From: Bacteroidia bacterium | Lineage (GTDB): Bacteria > Bacteroidota > Ignavibacteria > SZUA-365 | Reading direction: 5' to 3' | Assembly: GCA_027493955.1 (NCBI GenBank) | Contig: JAOSJT010000001.1 | Coordinates: forward strand, 697,131 to 761,130 | Length of the DNA stretch: 64,000 bases | Shown here: positions 4,548 through 64,000 of the stretch, piece by piece | Numbering within the stretch: the stretch's first letter is position 1 | Layout of the letters: each line of letters begins with the position of its first letter | Translations under genes and position numbers: made by a program | Notes under the pieces: generated by a model | The model's input: only the letters and a program-made list of their open reading frames with translations | Databases searched by the model: none | What the model was told of the DNA's origin: nothing

Positions 4548-4640
4548 GGTTGAACCGTATTCTTGTGACAAATGGTGTCGCTGCTGCGACCATGAAAAGT
4601 ACCGAAATCGTGAACGAGGAAAAAGCGGAGAGCAGACACT

Positions 4641-4766
4641 AGAGAGCGGAGAGCAGAGAGCAGAGAGCGGAGAGCAGAGAGCAGAGAGCAGAGAGCAGAG
4701 AGCAGAGAGCAGAGAGCAGAGAGCAGAGAGCAGAGAGCAGAGAGCAGAGAGCGGAGAGCAGAGAGC
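4641..4766. repeat. Heptanucleotide tandem repeat (AGAGAGC)x18
   Basis: Exactly 18 consecutive 7-bp units, mostly AGAGAGC with occasional GGAGAGC, with degenerate copies continuing to ~4625. It lies ~95 bp upstream of the epimerase start on the strand that would be its leader. The array fills most of the non-coding stretch 4548-4965; the remainder holds the terminator near 4914-4942 and nothing else I recognise. Seven-base units change frame with every unit gained or lost, so the array is unlikely to be coding. Confidence 0.95.
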
Positions 4767-4913
4767 ATGTCCGTGGGAGATGGCGCGATGCGAAAAGGAG
4801 CCTGGAAGCGGTGACAGTGCGCTGTGCTCATACATTCGGATAGCACGACCATGCGCTCCGCTCTCGCTCTCAGCTTCCGCTCAGAAGCGCACGCGTCCGT
4901 CACACACAGAAAT

Positions 4914-7227: not shown

Positions 7228-9693
7228 CTATGGCGCGGGATCAACAGCATCGGCATCGTTGCTGATGTCCTGATCCGCAGTCACGCGCGCGATGTCCGCG
7301 ATGGAATCTCCTTCGCGGAGATTGATGAGACGCACCCCTTGGGTATTCCGGCCCATGACGCGTATGCTGCGCATATGCTGGCGTATCACCTGACCCTTGA
7401 CAGTGATGATGACCAGATCGTCCAGATCGGAGACTTCCTTGAGTCCGATCACGGGGCCTGTTTTCGGTGTCACATTCATTGTGATCACACCTTTCCCGCC
7501 GCGCCGTGTATGCCGGTACTCCGACACTTCACTGCGCTTGCCGTAGCCGTGTTCGCTCACGACGAGAACATTGCTGGTGGGGCGGCAGAGTATCATACCG
7601 ATGACGCGATCGTCGTCGGCGAGACTGATCCCGCGCACACCCGTCGCACCACGGCCCATGTCGCGCACATCCGTTTCGGAAAAACGAATGGCCTGTCCGA
7701 GACGGGTGGCGATGAGCATATCGTTGTTCCCGTCGGTGATTTTCGCTTCGATGAGATTGTCGCCCGCATCGAGGGAGATAGCGATGATGCCGGTGGATCG
7801 CGGATTGCCATAGGCGCTGAGGACGGTCTTCTTCACCGTGCCCTGCTGGGTCACCATCATGATGTACTGGTCGTCGGTGAACTCCTTGACGGTGACGAAG
7901 GCCGCGATGGTTTCGTCCTTCTGCTTGTTGATGCAGTTTATTATGGCTCTGCCACGCGCCACGCGTCCGCCTTCGGGCACTTCAAACACCTTGAGCCAGT
8001 AGCAGCGGCCCTTGTCGGTGAAGAAGAGGATGTAATGATGCGTCGAGGCGATAAACATGTGCTCGACGAAATCGTCCTCGCGTGAGGCGGACCCGGCCAC
8101 GCCCTTGCCGCCGCGGCCTTGCCTGCGGTAGGTGCTGACGGGCGTGCGCTTGATGAAGCCCTGATGGCTGATGGTGATGACCACGTCTTCTTCAGCGATC
8201 ATGTCTTCCAGACGGAAGTCCGCGTAATCATAGATGATTTCGGTGCGGCGGTCGTCGCTGAAGCGGTCCTTCAACACCCGGAGTTCATCACCGATGACCT
8301 GCCAGCGCAATGTTTCGTTTTCCAGAATGCCGCGCAGACGGGTGATCAATTTGATGGTTTCTTTGTACTCGTCTTCGATTTTTTTCCGCTCGAGACCGGT
8401 CAGGCGCTGCAGGCGCATATCGAGAATGGCTTTCGCCTGAATCTCGCTGAGCTTGAAGCGCTTCATGAGGTTTGTGCGGGCGGTTTCGGTGTCTTTGGAT
8501 TTCTTGATCGTCTCGATGACTTCGTCGATGTTGTCGAGCGCGATGATGTACCCTTCGAGAATGTGTGCGCGTTTTTCCGCTTCCGCCAACTCGAATTTGG
8601 TTCGGCGCACGACGACATCGTGACGGAAATCAAGAAAATGACGCATCATCTCCCGGAGGGACAAGACTTTCGGACGTCCGTCAACCAGCGCGAGCATGAT
8701 GGCGCCGAAGGTGACCTGCATTTGTGTGTGCTTGTAGAGATTGTTCAGCACCACCTCGGGATTGCCGTCGCGCTTGATTTCTATGACCATGCGCATACCG
8801 TCACGATCGCTCTCGTCGCGGATGTTCGAGATGCCGTCGATCTTTCCCGCCTTGACCAGTTCAACGATTTTCTCTATCAAATTCGCTTTGTTGACCTGAT
8901 AGGGAAGTTCGCTGACGATGATATTTTCCCGTCCGTTTTTAAGCGTTTCGATATTCGCGCGTCCGCGGACGATAATTTTGCCGCGGCCGGTGAGGTAGGC
9001 GTCCTGCACTCCCTGATAGCCGAAGATGATGCCGCCGGTGGGGAAGTCGGGTGCGAGGACGTGTTTCATGATGTCCTCGGGCGAAATCTGCGGATTGTCT
9101 ATCATGGCGAGCAGGCCGTCTATCACCTCTCCGAGATTATGCGGAGGAATGTTCGTTGCCATACCCACCGCGATACCGCCGGCACCGTTGACGAGCAGGT
9201 TGGGAAGCAGCGCGGGAAGCACTTTCGGTTCCTGCAGGGACTCGTCGAAGTTCGAAGTGAAATCGACGGTATCCTTTTCCAGGTCGCGCAGCAACTCCGC
9301 AGCAATGGGAGCCATGCGTGCCTCGGTATAGCGCATGGCCGCTGCGCTGTCGCCGTCCACGGAACCGTAGTTCCCCTGACCCTGAACCAACGGATAGCGG
9401 AGCGAAAAGTCCTGCACCATGCGCACCATGGCATCGTACACCGCGGAATCCCCGTGCGGATGATACTTGCCCAGCACCTCGCCCACAATACGCGCCGATT
9501 TCTTGTACGCGCGGTTGGGAGCGAGGCCCAGCTCGTTCATTCCGAACAGAATGCGCCGGTGTACCGGTTTGAGACCGTCGCGCACGTCCGGGAGGGCACG
9601 CGAGACGATGACGGACATGGAATAATCGATGTAGGAATTCTTGAGTTCGTCCTCGATGTTGACGCGGACGATTTTATCGGTAGGGGTGGACAT
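7228..9693 (-). CDS. gyrA: DNA gyrase subunit A
   Basis: 821 residues. GyrA is the breakage-reunion subunit of gyrase, which with GyrB introduces negative supercoils using ATP. The N-terminal start '[34 protein letters not shown]' region is canonical. The catalytic tyrosine is in '[11 protein letters not shown]' (residue ~124). The quinolone-resistance region reads '[12 protein letters not shown]', with the Ser and Asp expected in a sensitive enzyme. The C-terminal beta-pinwheel carries the GyrA box as 'QGRGGKG', which separates it from ParC. It stands alone; 260 bp upstream hold no gene I can recognise. Confidence 0.97.
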
Positions 9694-26297: not shown

Positions 26298-26322
26298 ACG
26301 GCGTGACCATTCCGCATCTGGT

Positions 26323-26400
26323 CGTGCCGCTGTGGCGATACATGAATCGCCCACTTCCGCTTCGGCTCGTGCTGCTGCGGCGATACATGAATCGCCCACT
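26323..26400. repeat. Two copies of a 45-bp REP-like unit
   Basis: Two direct copies, 45 bp apart, of a segment whose core is the palindrome GGCGATACATGAATCGCC (26334-26351 and 26379-26396; 6-bp arms, 6-nt loop). Surrounding bases (CGTGC.GCTG.) are also conserved. Such palindromes are typical REP sequences associated with RAYT transposases, consistent with the remnant just upstream. Confidence 0.8.
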
Positions 26401-43696: not shown

Positions 43697-45004
43697 ATGC
43701 CCCATACCCGCGCTCCCTTTCACCTCCAGGAAACGCTGGACCTTTTTCGTGAATCCATCGAGTTCGTCAACCGCCGCATCATCAACCGTACGGCGGTCAT
43801 CGACCAGATATTTTCGGCCCTGCTCATGCGGGAGCACGCCCTGGTGCAAAGCCGCACCGGCGCCGCGAAATCGTTGCTGGTGAATCAGATCTTCGCCACC
43901 TTCGAAGGCGCGGCTGTGTTCAAGGTGCAGGCCTCCAAGGAACAGCAGCCGGACACCTACTTCGGCGCGCTCGATATCGAGGAACTGAAAAAGGGACGAA
44001 TCGTCCATAATACCAGCAATTCCCTCGTCGAGAGTGAATTCGGTTTCATTGACGAGATATTCGATGCAAATGATTACACTCTTCGGGCTCTGCTCACCAC
44101 TCTCAACGAGAGAGCGCTGATTCTCGGCGCGCAGTACGTGCCGGCCAGGGTGCATACCGTCATCGCCGCCACGAACTATCTGCGCGTCAGCGAAATCACC
44201 GAAGCCTTGCTCGATCGCTTCATATTCAAGGCCCTGTTCATTCCCGCAAAGGAGCCCTACACGCAGTACCAGATCGCGCAGCGCTATCTCCTGCATCACG
44301 GACGTCCCACGGCGCCTCGGCGCCTCATCCCGTACGCCTCTCTCGATCGCACCAGTCTGATCATTCGCGGGGAGGATGCCGATCACAATATCCATATTCC
44401 GCTGCATGTGATTTTTTTCGCCAATTCCGTCGTGCGCTACTACGAGACGCAGCGGAACCGCCTCATCCGCGAACGTCCCCACGAACATCCGCACATGCAG
44501 GATTTCTATATCTCGCCGCGCACCTACACCCGAGCGATGGACATGCTTCGCGTGCTTGCATTTCTCCAGGGTCGCATGGAAGTCATCCCTGAAGATGTGT
44601 CCAAGCTCTGGTATCTCTATACTACTGTCGGTATGCGCGACGAGCAGGAGCTGTTCGAGAAATGCTATACCACCATATTCAAGCAATTGAGTTCCGCCCG
44701 CGCCTTCGAGCAAATTCAGAAACTGCTGGAGTTTCAGGAATTCATCGAGATACTGAAAGGCGACCGTAAATTGCTGACACAGCCGATCACGCAGATTGAA
44801 GGCACACCCATGCGGCGCACCCTGCGCGAATGGGCCCGCGACACCCTCGGCGTCAGCGACGCCACCGTCGAACACAACAGGCGTCTCCTCGAATCGTATC
44901 ACAAAGCGCTCGAACCCGTCACGGAAGAAATCGCGGAGTTCAAGAAGCGACAGGAGCGCGACATTATCGAGTTGTTCACGCCCACTCCGCACATCTGGAC
45001 CTGA
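43697..45004 (+). CDS. MoxR-like AAA+ ATPase
   Basis: 435 residues. AAA+ core in the first ~250: Walker A 'VQSRTGAAKSLL' (Lys58; Ser in place of the usual first Gly), Walker B 'FGFIDEIFDAN' (Asp119-Glu120), sensor-1 'HTVIAATNYL', arginine-finger region 'LLDRFIFKALF'. The C-terminal helical part resembles RavA/CoxD-type lids. MoxR ATPases act as chaperones that insert cofactors or remodel complexes and normally pair with a VWA protein; the VWA gene at 45381 on the same strand is the obvious partner, although 376 bp separate them. No signal peptide; cytoplasmic. Confidence 0.88.
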   Translation: MPHTRAPFHLQETLDLFRESIEFVNRRIINRTAVIDQIFSALLMREHALVQSRTGAAKSLLVNQIFATFEGAAVFKVQASKEQQPDTYFGALDIEELKKGRIVHNTSNSLVESEFGFIDEIFDANDYTLRALLTTLNERALILGAQYVPARVHTVIAATNYLRVSEITEALLDRFIFKALFIPAKEPYTQYQIAQRYLLHHGRPTAPRRLIPYASLDRTSLIIRGEDADHNIHIPLHVIFFANSVVRYYETQRNRLIRERPHEHPHMQDFYISPRTYTRAMDMLRVLAFLQGRMEVIPEDVSKLWYLYTTVGMRDEQELFEKCYTTIFKQLSSARAFEQIQKLLEFQEFIEILKGDRKLLTQPITQIEGTPMRRTLREWARDTLGVSDATVEHNRRLLESYHKALEPVTEEIAEFKKRQERDIIELFTPTPHIWT

Positions 45005-45010
45005 CGCGTT

Positions 45011-45374
45011 ACGATTGACGATTGTCGATTGATCCGCCTTTAACGGAACGATGTAGCCGCTTCCGGCGGAAGACGTGAAAAGGTAAAGAGAGTAAAGGGG
45101 AGGAAGTGAAGAGTGAAGAGTGAAGAGTGAAGAGCGAAGAGTGAAGAGCGAAGAGTGAAGAGCGAAGAGTGAAGAGTGAAGAGTGAAGACCCTAAATCGT
45201 CCCGCCTTCGCTCGTATTTTATGACGTCGGTACTATGTACCGATGATGCTTCGGCGGGCAGGCAATCGTGAACGCAGAATTCGCAGAAAAAACAGAACAC
45301 GCAGAAAAGACAGCAACGATGGATGAGCAGTCCCTGTAAATGCGCAAATCCAAAATCGTAAATCGTAAATCGTA
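45011..45374. repeat. Three different heptanucleotide arrays in one intergenic gap
   Basis: The 376-bp gap 45005-45380 contains ACGATTG x3 (45011-45031, third unit TCGATTG), GAAGAGT/GAAGAGC x11 (45108-45184, with a partial unit to ~45188), and AATCGTA x3 (45354-45374). The last array ends only 6 bp before the VWA start codon, where a ribosome site would be expected. Between ~45190 and 45350 there is loosely repetitive GCAGAA-rich sequence and no gene. Confidence 0.9.
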
Positions 45375-45380
45375 CATCTC

Positions 45381-46904
45381 ATGTCTTCGGTCTATAATCA
45401 CTTTTTCGACATCATGGAGGACCTCGGCTTCTTCGAGCATATCTACGAAGAGTTGCCGGAGGATTTTACCGCGGTGTTCGAAATAGCGAGAATTCTGGAG
45501 GATGAGCACAGTCCTCTCACCGAAGCATTGCGGCCGGTGCTGACACTGCGGACACCGGGAGGGAAGCGTAGCGAGGAAAGCGAAGCGGAGCAGCTGCAGG
45601 TGTTCATCACCGACGAAGAGGAATACGAAGCCGGTCTTATCCGCACGCCGCAACATCTGCCGCGCATCTACAATCACCAATGGCTGTTGCCGGAACAGGT
45701 GTTCTATCACCGCCTCGCAAAAAAGGAACTCTGGGTGCCGTATGCCCGCGAACCGCGGTACTACGCGGTGGATCCCGATGCGGACGATTACCGGCCCGAC
45801 GGTCGCAAGCAGAAACTGTATCTCCTCCTCGACACGTCGAGTTCCATGGCCATGCGTAACCGCATCAATCTCGCAAAGGCCGTGGTGTACCATTTTCTCA
45901 AGCACAACATGAAGGAGCTGGGGTATATTCACTTCCGCACCTTCGACACAAAAATCGGCGAGCTGCACGAAGCACGGGACAGTGCCGGTTTCCGGGCGCT
46001 GATCAGTTACGTCATGCGTCTCCACGCGCTGGGCAACGGGACGGCCATGGCGCGTGCCATAACCCAGGCCGTGCGCGATATCAACGAATTGCCGCAACTG
46101 TCGGGCACGGAAATCCTGATTATCACCGACGGTGCCTGCGCGCTCAACGAAGCGGAAATCCGATCCATGCTCGGTGAACGCATCGTCATCAACACCATCA
46201 AAATCGGCAGAACGCAGCTCTACGCCTCGCGCAGCTATATCCATGACCGCCTCTTCGAAGACGACACCGAGCAGCACCGCATTCTCGACCGACTGCAAAA
46301 ACGCCAGTCCGAGCTGCGCTATCAGCTCGAACACGCGCAGAGTGTGCAACTCAGACGTCGCTACGAAGAGTCGCTGCAAGCGCTTCAGACCGAACTGGAC
46401 CGACAGGTCAATGCCATGACCGAAGAAATCACCGTCGGCTACGGGCACGAACTCGAACGGCTGTCGGAATTCTACATCTCTCTCGACGACATGGACCTGC
46501 CCGGTCTGTTCACCTTCCGTCAGGAGCAATTGGATGACGTCCGTGCGCTCTTCGCGGAAATAACAGCCGAACTCGACCTGCACTGCTCCCTCGAACAGCT
46601 GCGCAAACTCGCGCTGCTCATGGATCACCTGAACCTGCTCATCAAGAACACGAGCGATCCGGACCTGAAGAAACAGTTCGAGGAGTTGCAGGAAGAAGTG
46701 AGCCGTCGGCTCACCGGCTGCATCGAAGCCCAGATAGAAAAAAGCGGGGGAGGGGTGTTCCGCGCACTCAGCGCCGCCGATCGCCATGATCTCGAATTCC
46801 TCATTTCGTCGGCCTCGGGGTTGCACCTCGGCCTCTGGCGTGCCTTTATCTGGAAGCTTCTGGGGAGACTGAGAAAGATCGTCGGCGCAGGGAAAAACAC
46901 CTGA
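45381..46904 (+). CDS. VWA-domain protein, partner of MoxR ATPase
   Basis: 507 residues, cytoplasmic. An acidic N-terminal ~140 residues are followed by a von Willebrand factor A domain (~143-265) with an intact MIDAS: 'LLLDTSSSMAMRN' (Asp151), Thr in 'LGNGTAMARAI', and Asp in 'LIITDGACALNE'. After this comes a long charged coiled coil (~285-360) and a helical C-terminus. The layout resembles CoxE/ViaA-like partners of MoxR/RavA ATPases. No Shine-Dalgarno is visible; AATCGTA repeats take its place. Confidence 0.85.
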   Translation: MSSVYNHFFDIMEDLGFFEHIYEELPEDFTAVFEIARILEDEHSPLTEALRPVLTLRTPGGKRSEESEAEQLQVFITDEEEYEAGLIRTPQHLPRIYNHQWLLPEQVFYHRLAKKELWVPYAREPRYYAVDPDADDYRPDGRKQKLYLLLDTSSSMAMRNRINLAKAVVYHFLKHNMKELGYIHFRTFDTKIGELHEARDSAGFRALISYVMRLHALGNGTAMARAITQAVRDINELPQLSGTEILIITDGACALNEAEIRSMLGERIVINTIKIGRTQLYASRSYIHDRLFEDDTEQHRILDRLQKRQSELRYQLEHAQSVQLRRRYEESLQALQTELDRQVNAMTEEITVGYGHELERLSEFYISLDDMDLPGLFTFRQEQLDDVRALFAEITAELDLHCSLEQLRKLALLMDHLNLLIKNTSDPDLKKQFEELQEEVSRRLTGCIEAQIEKSGGGVFRALSAADRHDLEFLISSASGLHLGLWRAFIWKLLGRLRKIVGAGKNT

Positions 46905-53831: not shown

Positions 53832-53904
53832 AGATGTCGCATGCAACGTCTCAATACTTCCGTTGCATGCACCAACTCTCGACGGACGTTGCATGCAACG
53901 TCTC
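53831..53904. repeat. TTGCATGCAA palindromes in three partial copies
   Basis: Centred on GCATGCAA/TTGCATGC: GATGTCGCATGCAACGTC (53834-53851), CCGTTGCATGCACC, and GGACGTTGCATGCAACGTCT (53884-53903), the last nearly a perfect 20-bp palindrome. The first begins at the end of the stop codon of the OmpA-domain gene. These look like a dispersed palindromic repeat rather than a terminator. The remainder of 53832-54108 shows no gene. Confidence 0.75.
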
Positions 53905-54108
53905 TCCATGATGGCCGATGATGGGCGGGTAGGGCAACGATTTTGCTCTTTACTTCGTTGCCGGACATCGCTACATTACGGGCATCCCGGAACGCTCCCG
54001 TCCGCATGCGTAACTTTCATTTTTCTGGCCACGTAACATCGCAGTGCTGTCGGGTGTCATTCCTTTTTGTTCCCGGCGGATACTTTCAGCATACACACGG
54101 CGGGCGCC

Positions 54109-59400: not shown

Positions 59401-60320
59401 TAGGGAATGAAACGCAAAGACGCAGAGGGGCAGAGACGCAGAGGCTTTCTTTAAGGGGCTGGTATCGTGGAGCTCGTCTCGTGACGAAAGGGAAGTGACG
59501 CGGAAGCGTTGGTGATGTGTCTGGGTTCATTCTGAAACGATCGAGATGGATAATACCGCCACCCACATCTTGAGCGAAGGCTCGGCGATTCCTCCCCCCA
59601 TAATTTTCCTCTGCGCCTCTGCTGCTCTGCGCCTCTGCGTTAGGAAATGAAACGCAGAGACGCAGAGGGGCAGAGACGCAGAGGCTTTCTTTAAGGGGCT
59701 GGTATCGTGGCGTTCGTCTCGTTACGAAAGGGAAGTGACGCGGAAGCGTTGGTGATGTGTCTGGGTTCATTCTGAAACGATCGAGATGGATAATACCGCC
59801 ACCCACATCTTGAGCGAAGGCTCGGCGATTCCTCCCCCTATAATTTTCCTCTGCGCCTCTGCTGCTCTGCGCCTCTGCGTTAAATCTCCCTCCGCGCCTC
59901 TGCACCTTTGCGTCTCTGCGTTAGGGAATGAAACGCAAAGACGCCCCTTCGACTACGCTCAGGAGGGGCAGAGACGCAGAGGCTTTTTTTTAGGGGCTGG
60001 TATCGTGGAGCTCGTCTCGTGACGAAACGGAAGTGACGCGGAAGCGTCGGTGATGTGTCTGGGTTCATTCTGAAACGATCGAGATGGATAATACCGCCAC
60101 CCACATCTTGAGCGAAGGCTCGGCGATTCCTCCCCCCATAATTTTTCCTCTGCGCCTCTGCACCTTTGCGTCTCTGCGTTAAATGTCCCTCTGCGCCTCT
60201 GCGTTAAATCTGCCTCCGCGCCTCTGCGTTAAATCTCCCTCCGCGCCTCTGCGCTAGGGAATGCAGCGCAAAGGCGCCCCTTCGACTACGCTCAGGAGGG
60301 GCAAAGCCGCAGAGTGTATC
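59401..60320. repeat. Tandem array of ~240-bp elements with octamer-built inverted arms (cluster A)
   Basis: Three full units and one partial, starting near 59401, 59641, 59922 and 60254. Each has a left arm of about four 8-bp units (CGCAGAGN), a 163-bp core, and a right arm of the complementary octamers; in unit 1 the arms (59411-59444 and 59608-59641) match at 30 of 34 positions. Units 3 and 4 carry the insert CCCTTCGACTACGCTCAGG in the left arm, and unit 3 has extra right-arm octamers. The core is nearly identical in all copies. With the spacer to the TfoX gene it fills the gap 59326-60396; no gene is seen there. Confidence 0.93.
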
Positions 60321-60801: not shown

Positions 60802-61232
60802 GATAGATTCTGCGTCTCCGCTTCGCTCCGCATAGAATGACCGTGGGCTGTCACCCTGCGCGAAGCCGAAGGGGCCTGCCCTGAGCGAAGCTGAAGGGGC
60901 CTGCCCTGAGCGAAGTCGCCGTCACCCTGCGCGAAGCGAAGCGAGTCGCAGGGCCTGTCCTGAGCGAAGCCGAAGGGTCCAACGCGGGGAGGGATAGATT
61001 CTGCGACTCCGCTTCGCTCCGCGCAGAATGACCGCAGTGTGTCACCCTGCGAGAAGCCGAAGGTGCCTGCCCTGAGCGAAGCCGAAGGGGCCTGCCCTGA
61101 GCGAAGCCGCCGTCACCCTGCGCGAAGCGAAGCGAGTCGCAGGGTCCAACGCGGGGAGCGATACATTCTGCGACTCCGCTTCACTTCGCGCAGAATGACC
61201 GCAGTTTGTCACCCTGCGAGAAGCCGAAGGGG
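60802..61232. repeat. Composite palindromic repeat cluster (cluster B), three ~170-190-bp units
   Basis: Units begin at 60802, 60993 and 61160 with GATAGATTCTGCG or a variant. Each contains hairpin arms ATTCTGCG / CGCAGAAT, a second pair CCCTGCG / CGCAGGG, and copies of CCTGAGCGAAGCCGAAGGGG. The gap 60724-61589 holds this cluster; the remainder (61233-61589) has no gene or motif I recognise apart from the AT-rich run-up to the next gene. Confidence 0.88.
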
Positions 61233-63059: not shown

Positions 63060-63099
63060 GAGAGAACAGCGCCCATCCAGGCACTCCGCGCCGCTGCGT

Positions 63100-64000
63100 T
63101 AGGGAATGAAACGCAGAGACGCCCCTTCGACTACGCTCAGGAGGGGCAGAGACGCAGAGGCTTTTTTTAAGGGGCTGGTATCGTGGCGTTCGTCTCGTTA
63201 CGAAAGGGGAGTGACGCGGAAGCGTTGGTAATGTGTCTGGGTTCATTCTGAAACGATCGAGATGGATAATACCGCCACCCACATCTTGAGCGAAGGTTCG
63301 GCGATTCCTCCCCCCATAATTTTTCCTCTGCGCCTCTGCACCTCTGCGCCGCTGCGTTAGGGAATGAAACGCAGAGACGCAGAGGGGCAGAGACGCAGAG
63401 ACTTTCTTTAAGGGGCTGGTATCGTGGCGCTCGTCTCGTTACGAAAGGGGAGTGACGCGGAAGCGTTGGTAATGTGTCTGGGTTCATTCTGAAACGATCG
63501 AGATGGATAATACCGCCACCCACATCTTGAGCGAAGGTTCGGCGATTCCTCCCCCTCTAATTTTCCTCCGCGCCTCTGCACCTCCGCGCCTCTGCGTTAG
63601 GGAATGAAACGCAGAGACGCCCCTTCGACTACGCTCAGGAGGGGCAGAGACGCAGAGGCTTTTTTTAAGGGGCTGGTATCGTGGCGTTCGTCTCGTTACG
63701 AAAGGGAAGTGACGCGGAAGCGTTGGTGATGTGTCTGGGTTCATTCTGAAACGATCGAGATGGATAATACCGCCACCCACATCTTGAGCGAAGGCTCGGC
63801 GATTCCTCCCCCCATAATTTTCCTCCGCGCCTCTGCACCTCTGCGCCTCTGCGTTAGGGAATGAAACGCAGAGACGCCCCTTCGACTACGCTCAGGAGGG
63901 GCAGAGACGCAGAGGCTTTTTTTAAGGGGCTGGTATCGTGGAGTGACGCGGAAGCGTTGGTGATGTGTCTGGGTTCATTCTGAAACGATCGAGATGGATA
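63100..64000. repeat. Tandem array of ~240-258-bp elements (cluster C), running off the window
   Basis: Same element as in cluster A, in the same orientation. Units start near 63100, 63358, 63598 and 63855, the last cut by the window end. Spacings are 258, 240 and 257 bp: units with the CCCTTCGACTACGCTCAGG insert are 17-18 bp longer than the one without. The last unit lacks ~25 bp of the core after GGCTGGTATCGTGG. No gene is seen in 63060-64000. Confidence 0.93.

Follow-up and report, generated by a model that had tools for sequence, protein, structure and literature searches.

Intergenic heptanucleotide arrays in an Ignavibacteria genome: seven-base preference, purine-first pairs and a possible foldback origin

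Why should one gap between two bacterial genes hold three tandem arrays, each with a unit of seven bases? The question is raised by positions 45005..45380 of the window, the 64,000-nucleotide stretch of DNA analyzed here. An initial, sequence-only reading of this DNA had reported three unrelated heptamer arrays in the gap and one further array at a distance, and had suggested a common mechanism favouring seven-base units, such as a polymerase or repair step. In the portions of the literature cited here, the seven-base preference of bacterial tandem repeats is noticed but not explained. No literature joining Ignavibacteria, tandem repeats and intergenic DNA was found.

The gap and its arrays

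The 376-bp gap separates two co-directional open reading frames on the forward strand: 43697..45004, which encodes a MoxR-type AAA+ ATPase of 435 residues (Pfam bpMoxR, 1.1e-28, above cut-off), and 45381..46904, which encodes a VWA-domain protein of 507 residues (Pfam VWA_CoxE, 1.2e-6, above cut-off). The gap is mosaic in build, made up of dispersed pieces as well as heptamer arrays. TRF recovered all four arrays that had been reported. Within the gap, these are ACGATTG, of family II (ACGATTN and variants), with 3.1 copies at 45011..45032 on the forward strand (score 37); GAAGAGT, of family I (TRF unit AGTGAAG), with 12.1 copies at 45105..45189 on the forward strand (score 149); and AATCGTA, of inverted family II (TRF unit GTAAATC), with 6.0 copies at 45336..45378 on the reverse strand (score 49). 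The fourth, AGCAGAG of family IV, lies outside the gap at 4624..4767 on the forward strand, with 20.6 copies and a score of 239.

The three arrays of the gap are not unrelated. ACGATTG and TACGATT, the reverse complement of AATCGTA, have 6 of 7 bases in common, so the first and third arrays are inverted copies of one family and face each other. By itself, the score of the ACGATTG array is near noise, as the window holds three more period-7 TRF rows with scores of 30-31. The array is nevertheless credible as a member of family II: trimers of ACGATTN with at most one mismatch matched the genome 129 times, overlaps counted, against 0 matches for the control read backwards. The GAAGAGT array has no complementary partner in the gap, and its T and C variants alternate across six units, as from a 14-base duplication. 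Two other pieces complete the mosaic. Element B is a dispersed piece of ~80 bp at 45193..45272 (forward strand) with ends CCCGCC...GGCGGG and AATCG-type units at both edges. Degenerate CAGAA-type units were detected by TRF at 45284..45313 (forward strand), and a blastn search with 45265-45345 found similar DNA at four other loci (L128, L129, L146 and L147).

Family II arrays of the gap stand 6 bases past the stop codon and 7 bases ahead of the start codon, and the AATCGTA array as delimited by TRF ends 2 bases upstream of the VWA start codon. Such placement would suit arrays that function as binding sites, or as RNA or DNA hairpins, in regulating the flanking genes through termination, translation control or phase variation; excerpts of PMC4679880 describe a proposal of translational regulation for the TAACTGA arrays of Beggiatoaceae, and the purine-first arms described below could form hairpins. 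We nonetheless regard a regulatory role as improbable. The predicted RNA fold of the gap was no better than that of shuffled sequences (z = -0.22), no Rfam match was found up to an E-value of 1 within 44800-45600, and no promoter- or terminator-like site was found within 44900-45450. Moreover, array pairs occur alike in convergent, co-directional and divergent gaps, and the same junctions in relatives mostly lack arrays.

Preference for seven-base units in the genome

The genome (G000) is a single contig of 5.24 Mb. Period preference was evaluated in a sample of 864 kb (16%), comprising the window and 40 stretches of 20 kb, using a TRF score of at least 40. The excess of period seven that the sequence-only reading had anticipated was borne out in this sample: TRF array counts were 31 for period 7, 13 for period 8, one for period 5 and none for period 6. 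By our own gene calling, all 31 period-7 and all 13 period-8 arrays were intergenic, although intergenic DNA by the same calling makes up ~16.5% of the sample. At the level of two units, 7 of 94 motif clusters fell inside called genes. An earlier sample of 464 kb had yielded 24, 10 and 0 arrays of periods 7, 8 and 6, respectively, and one Markov control yielded none at these periods.

Exact tracts, defined as exact runs of at least 12 at a given lag, behaved similarly. Their counts in the 864-kb sample were 44, 2 and 0 for lags 7, 8 and 6, all intergenic; one Markov control of intergenic DNA contained 1 at lag 7. Counted as distinct 1.5-kb bins, the numbers were 19, 2 and 0, which differs from equal shares of lags 6, 7 and 8 with p ~8e-8. 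Further intergenic tracts were found at lags of 14, 21 and 28 (22, 13 and 11, respectively). The genome displays two hallmarks of long heptanucleotide SSRs, namely an excess over neighbouring unit lengths and a mostly noncoding placement.

Linking units that differ by one mismatch reduced the 44 lag-7 tracts to 5 unit classes, which indicates that much of the heptamer excess is the dispersal of a few families. Pooling G000 with two other array-rich genomes, G001 (same family, other genus) and G027 (another family of the class), gave 15 heptamer classes versus 4 hexamer and 4 octamer classes (p = 0.0017); 15 is an upper figure for independent classes because GAAGAGT-like classes recur across genomes. 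These data bear on the simplest explanation, that intergenic seeds grow into arrays by local slippage of a polymerase with a seven-base contact, without dispersal. Persistence of the excess after collapse to classes (15 versus 4 and 4) is in its favour, as is the fact that G000 and G001 agree in unit length though most of their units differ. Conversely, it does not account for the recurrence of a few unit classes at many loci, nor for octamers ranking second with 13 arrays. Together with the junction and pairing data below, this leaves purely local slippage with a modest chance of being correct.

Families in other genomes

Array load is patchy among the relatives. GAAGAGT trimers with up to two mismatches matched G000 114 times, overlaps counted, against 0 for the backwards control, and were present in 7 of 41 genomes: in addition to G000, G027 had 137, G007 had 13, G001 had 9, and three others had 5, 1 and 1. 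Two genomes belonging to different families are rich in GAAGAGT, which most of the nearer relatives lack. ACGATTN trimers were present in 5 of the 41 genomes, with at most 2 matches outside G000. AGGAGAC trimers were present in 8: G001 had 277 matches and G019 had 45, no other genome exceeded 4, and G000 had none. Such patchiness permits a comparison of gene content. In G016 and G017, the backwards-read GAAGAGT control matched 19 and 11 times; another purine-rich heptamer (TGAGAAG, up to two mismatches over three units) seems to be arrayed there.

The preference for seven extends to some of these genomes. In 552 kb of G001, TRF returned 16, 5 and 1 arrays of periods 7, 8 and 6, and exact tracts numbered 20, 6 and 1. 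Its units mostly differ from those of G000 (AGGAGAC, TGGTAGA, AACTCCC and others), which points to length rather than to one sequence. In 337 kb of G027, the corresponding counts were 12, 0 and 2 for TRF and 9, 0 and 3 for exact tracts. By contrast, 200 kb of G003, of the same family as G000, contained no period-7 arrays. In loci of 80 relatives (1.12 Mb), TRF arrays of periods 7 and 8 numbered 6 and 4, and exact tracts were 2 at lag 7 versus 9 at lag 8. The latter counts and the absence from G003 indicate that the group as a whole does not share the preference. The seven-base excess itself holds in the samples of G000, G001 and G027; independence of the arrays does not. Long octamer arrays were also seen in relatives, at 1627-1970 of L097 (CTCCGTCA, 43 copies) and at 10817-10940 of L031 (CCTCACGC, 15.5 copies). 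One gap of the locus L138 (7198-8476) combined a pentamer run (ACTGT) with heptamer arrays GCAGAGA and TGCTCTC.

The distribution of candidate enzymes was compared with that of the arrays, and no mobilizing enzyme tied to the arrays was found. Templated synthesis, in which a reverse transcriptase copies a heptamer template, would explain a fixed unit length and few unit families, but it can hardly be correct: RVT_1 had no match in G000, G001 or G027, the array-rich genomes sampled, and this absence largely refutes an enzyme of the RVT_1 type. RVT_1 was present in 12 of the 41 genomes, and most of these had no match to the searched array patterns; the two occur together in G007 and G032. Mobilization of REP-like elements by a Y1/RAYT transposase is very unlikely. 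Element B and other pieces of the gap are short, dispersed and palindrome-like, and G000 has one Y1 match, yet Y1 counts do not track array load: G001 has five matches, and G003, whose 200-kb sample contained no heptamer array, has three.

The same junctions in relatives

The adjacent moxR-VWA pair was present in 13 of the 17 relatives' loci examined. In 12 of these 13, the junction was shorter than the 376 bases of G000, and in L031-L034 it was only 1, 1, 2 and 4 bases. Three further array gaps were checked in 11 genomes of the same family; the four compared gaps were picked, not random, being that of the window and three with conserved-looking flanking genes. The accA-thioesterase junction, with the pair present in 9 of 11 loci, measured -10 to 12 bases versus 254 in G000, the DUF480-aminotransferase (hemL-like) junction -14 to 75 bases in 6 of 11 versus 137, and the HD_4-deacylase junction 11 to 129 bases in 11 of 11 versus 231. 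The remaining loci had no adjacent pair in the locus. Inspection by eye of the printed junctions of these three gaps in the relatives revealed no heptamer arrays.

Since the relatives' junctions are mostly shorter and array-free at all four gaps, the arrays came with inserted DNA. Local slippage alone cannot fill junctions which, in the closest relatives, are 1-4 bases long and thus cannot seed three arrays and element B. In this respect a mechanism of the polymerase type, as first suggested, is insufficient. The idea of a polymerase is sound, yet it is not new, heptamer dominance and polymerase contact having been published earlier.

Two loci count against an origin by insertion of foldback elements, as they hold other heptamers in the moxR-VWA junction. 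That of L035 is 134 bases long and contains TAATCTG-type heptamers; that of L049, a distant relative, is ~405 bases long, exceeding that of G000, and contains GTCAGTG and GTCATTA heptamers (9329-9362). No target-site duplication was seen; the relatives with tight junctions are ~75% identical in the MoxR protein, too diverged for ends to be mapped to the base. Repeats may have dropped out of the relatives' sequences, most of which are draft assemblies.

Facing pairs

In many gaps, an array is followed further on by its complement. A motif-free search for such pairs covered the 864-kb sample and 60 stretches chosen for holding arrays or element B. Under a strict rule requiring exact tracts in both arms, only 2 periodic pairs were found in G000 and 1 in G001, and the definition of an array was then relaxed. 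Using the relaxed rule, G000 had 16 inverted array pairs: 13 had the purine-rich array first, 1 had the pyrimidine-rich array first and 2 were of mixed composition. The single pyrimidine-first pair lies between tandem copies at 63.3 kb of the window. In G001, all 8 pairs were purine-first, and G027 had one pair, of mixed composition. In 90 loci of other relatives, no pair was found among 23 arrays.

Non-periodic inverted repeats served as the control. Their purine-first to pyrimidine-first ratio was 20:10 in G000 (44 undecided) and 30:30 in G001 (66 undecided), the G000 loci being restricted to intergenic DNA, here as in the search for array pairs, and those of G001 not, as no genes were called there. 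With array pairs counted under the relaxed rule and the control made under the strict rule, Fisher's test gave p = 0.0003 for the pooled data, 0.007 for G001 alone and 0.076 for G000 alone. The pooled test used 21:1 for all pairs, or 20:0 after removal of one tandem duplicate and the between-copies pair. Outside the motif-chosen stretches, the pairs of G000 were 7:1 (p = 0.07). The purine-first pairs are partly non-independent: three of those in G001 carry AGGAGAC and two carry TGGTAGA, and two in the window are tandem copies. Purine-first pairing is not predicted by local slippage.

A motif-defined set of 13 pairs was purine-first throughout; it includes one octamer pair (398419) and omits the tandem octamer blocks of the window (6 '+-', 5 '-+'). 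Four of these pairs lie in convergent gaps, 8 in co-directional gaps and 1 in a divergent gap. Selection at start codons was considered as a cause of the purine-first order and rejected, because the 4 pairs in convergent gaps have no start codon beside them. The suggestion had come from family I, whose arrays ran against the direction of the gene in all 7 cases that lay no more than 40 bases from a start codon. Family II pairs showed no preference for order (3:2). In the window, the orders of CGCAGAG-type octamers in tandem blocks alternate, 6 versus 5, because the copies stand side by side.

Other repeats were noted in the window. Tandem blocks of ~240 and 257 bp with inverted octamer arrays (ACGCAGAG / CCTCTGCG) occupy 59401-59882 and 63084-63941. 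Two arrays at 60854-60915 and 61045-61109 have a palindrome-like unit of 25 bp (CCCTGAGCGAAGCCGAAGGGGCCTG). A 45-bp unit occurs twice at 26310-26400, and a 26-bp unit 2.6 times at 53839-53906.

Element B

A search of the genome with 45185-45285 returned 26 matches, including element B itself; tandem copies follow one another at a step of 62 bp. Among 27 copies in the sampled DNA, an AATCG-type unit, with one mismatch allowed, stood at the left edge in 17 and at the right edge in 22, so element B mostly sits among family II heptamers. Junctions within tandem runs lacked such units. The purine-first array pairs and the ends of element B look like possible terminal inverted repeats. REP/MITE-type elements are short, noncoding, dispersed palindromes. 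Element B is like them in being short, noncoding, dispersed and palindrome-like, but differs in the tandem heptamers at its edges.

A candidate mechanism

We lean towards an account, somewhat better than even in our judgment, in which small intergenic elements of palindromic or foldback build spread through the genome, and the heptamer arrays in their arms lengthen or shorten by entire units. The account draws on the dominance of period 7 in the sample, the strictly intergenic placement of the 31 arrays, the dispersed families, the tighter junctions of relatives, the purine-first order, the edges of element B and growth in whole units. The comparison at four gaps shows array-carrying DNA to have entered sites where relatives mostly have much tighter junctions. 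The elements would be palindromic or foldback, often with a purine-rich array first and the complementary pyrimidine-rich array second, or else with heptamers on either side of a palindrome-ended piece, of which element B is an example; each build is partly shown by the data above. Once placed, arrays may grow or shrink through slippage or template switching in whole seven-base units, as the alternating variants and the tracts at lags 14, 21 and 28 suggest. A copying enzyme with a slip step of ~7, a published idea, would be the simplest reason for the unit length. The arrays are presumably kept between genes since selection removes insertions inside genes.

The gap that raised the question counts against the foldback reading in one respect. 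Its sole inverted pair is that of family II, of mixed composition, and no purine-first pair is present there.

A bolder version has a small chance of holding. Copying with a seven-base step and a fixed strand polarity might itself build the foldbacks: a purine-rich array would be extended, and the new strand would fold back and be copied, yielding purine-first pairs. The letters would turn over while step and polarity are kept, giving the same architecture across the genera of one family. In G000 and G001, two genera of one family, unit length and purine-first pairing are kept and the sequence is mostly free. Any mechanism must account for this conservation of length and polarity versus freedom of sequence, and facing purine-first pairs with mostly different letters in another genus are a clue to the origin of the repeats.

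Comparison with known systems

The following comparisons are based on excerpts of the cited papers. According to PMC4679880 and PMC4692102, Mrazek et al. 2007 found that in most genomes heptanucleotides outnumber every other unit class and, as cited in PMC4679880, invoked slippage, with 7 nt as perhaps the length contacting the polymerase. A later survey from the Mrazek group (PMC4060949) described 4-11-nt repeats as generally normal to weakly over-represented. The arrays of G000 share with the heptanucleotide SSRs their dominant unit length and intergenic placement. They differ in that the nearest named relatives of the host are Bacteroidetes/Ignavibacteria MAGs, and in that dispersed families have been inserted between genes, in many cases as purine-first pairs.

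The GGGAATC heptamers of Xanthomonas (Rehm et al. 2015, PMC4692102) are 89% and 93% intergenic in two Xanthomonas, which had 70 and 75 cases of two convergently oriented arrays; for the Nostoc heptamer GGGGA(C/T)T, the same paper describes few paired arrays. The arrays of G000 resemble those of Xanthomonas in being dispersed, intergenic and in facing pairs, and AATCGGG units also occur in G000. Convergent paired arrays of the Xanthomonas type were found in the searched stretches of the genome, the facing pair of the window gap being that of family II. Unlike the Xanthomonas and Nostoc heptamers in these excerpts, G000 has several families, and element B lies between heptamers. The GGG runs of the Xanthomonas type, with which a G-rich unit could form a quadruplex, are absent from the window units GAAGAGT, ACGATTG, AATCGTA and AGCAGAG, and GGG occurs in unit variants elsewhere (AAGGGTG, AAAGGGT and AATCGGG).

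Kaasalainen et al. 2015 (PMC4476775) describe complementary 7-nt repeats on the two sides of the P6b stem in the Nostoc tRNA-Leu intron, where the letters have been replaced and the structure kept. The class I motif of that intron, TDNGATT, fits TACGATT of G000. The Nostoc repeats described there lie inside a group I intron, whereas the arrays of G000 lie between genes.

Finally, TAACTGA direct repeats (MacGregor 2015, PMC4679880) occur in Beggiatoaceae, Cyanobacteria and five Bacteroidetes, mostly near start codons. Like the arrays of G000, they are intergenic and patchy across genomes, and at some loci the gap of a close relative is shorter and lacks them. TAACTGA, as described there, is a single heptamer in direct repeats; G000, in contrast, has several families, with inverted pairs, in all types of gap.
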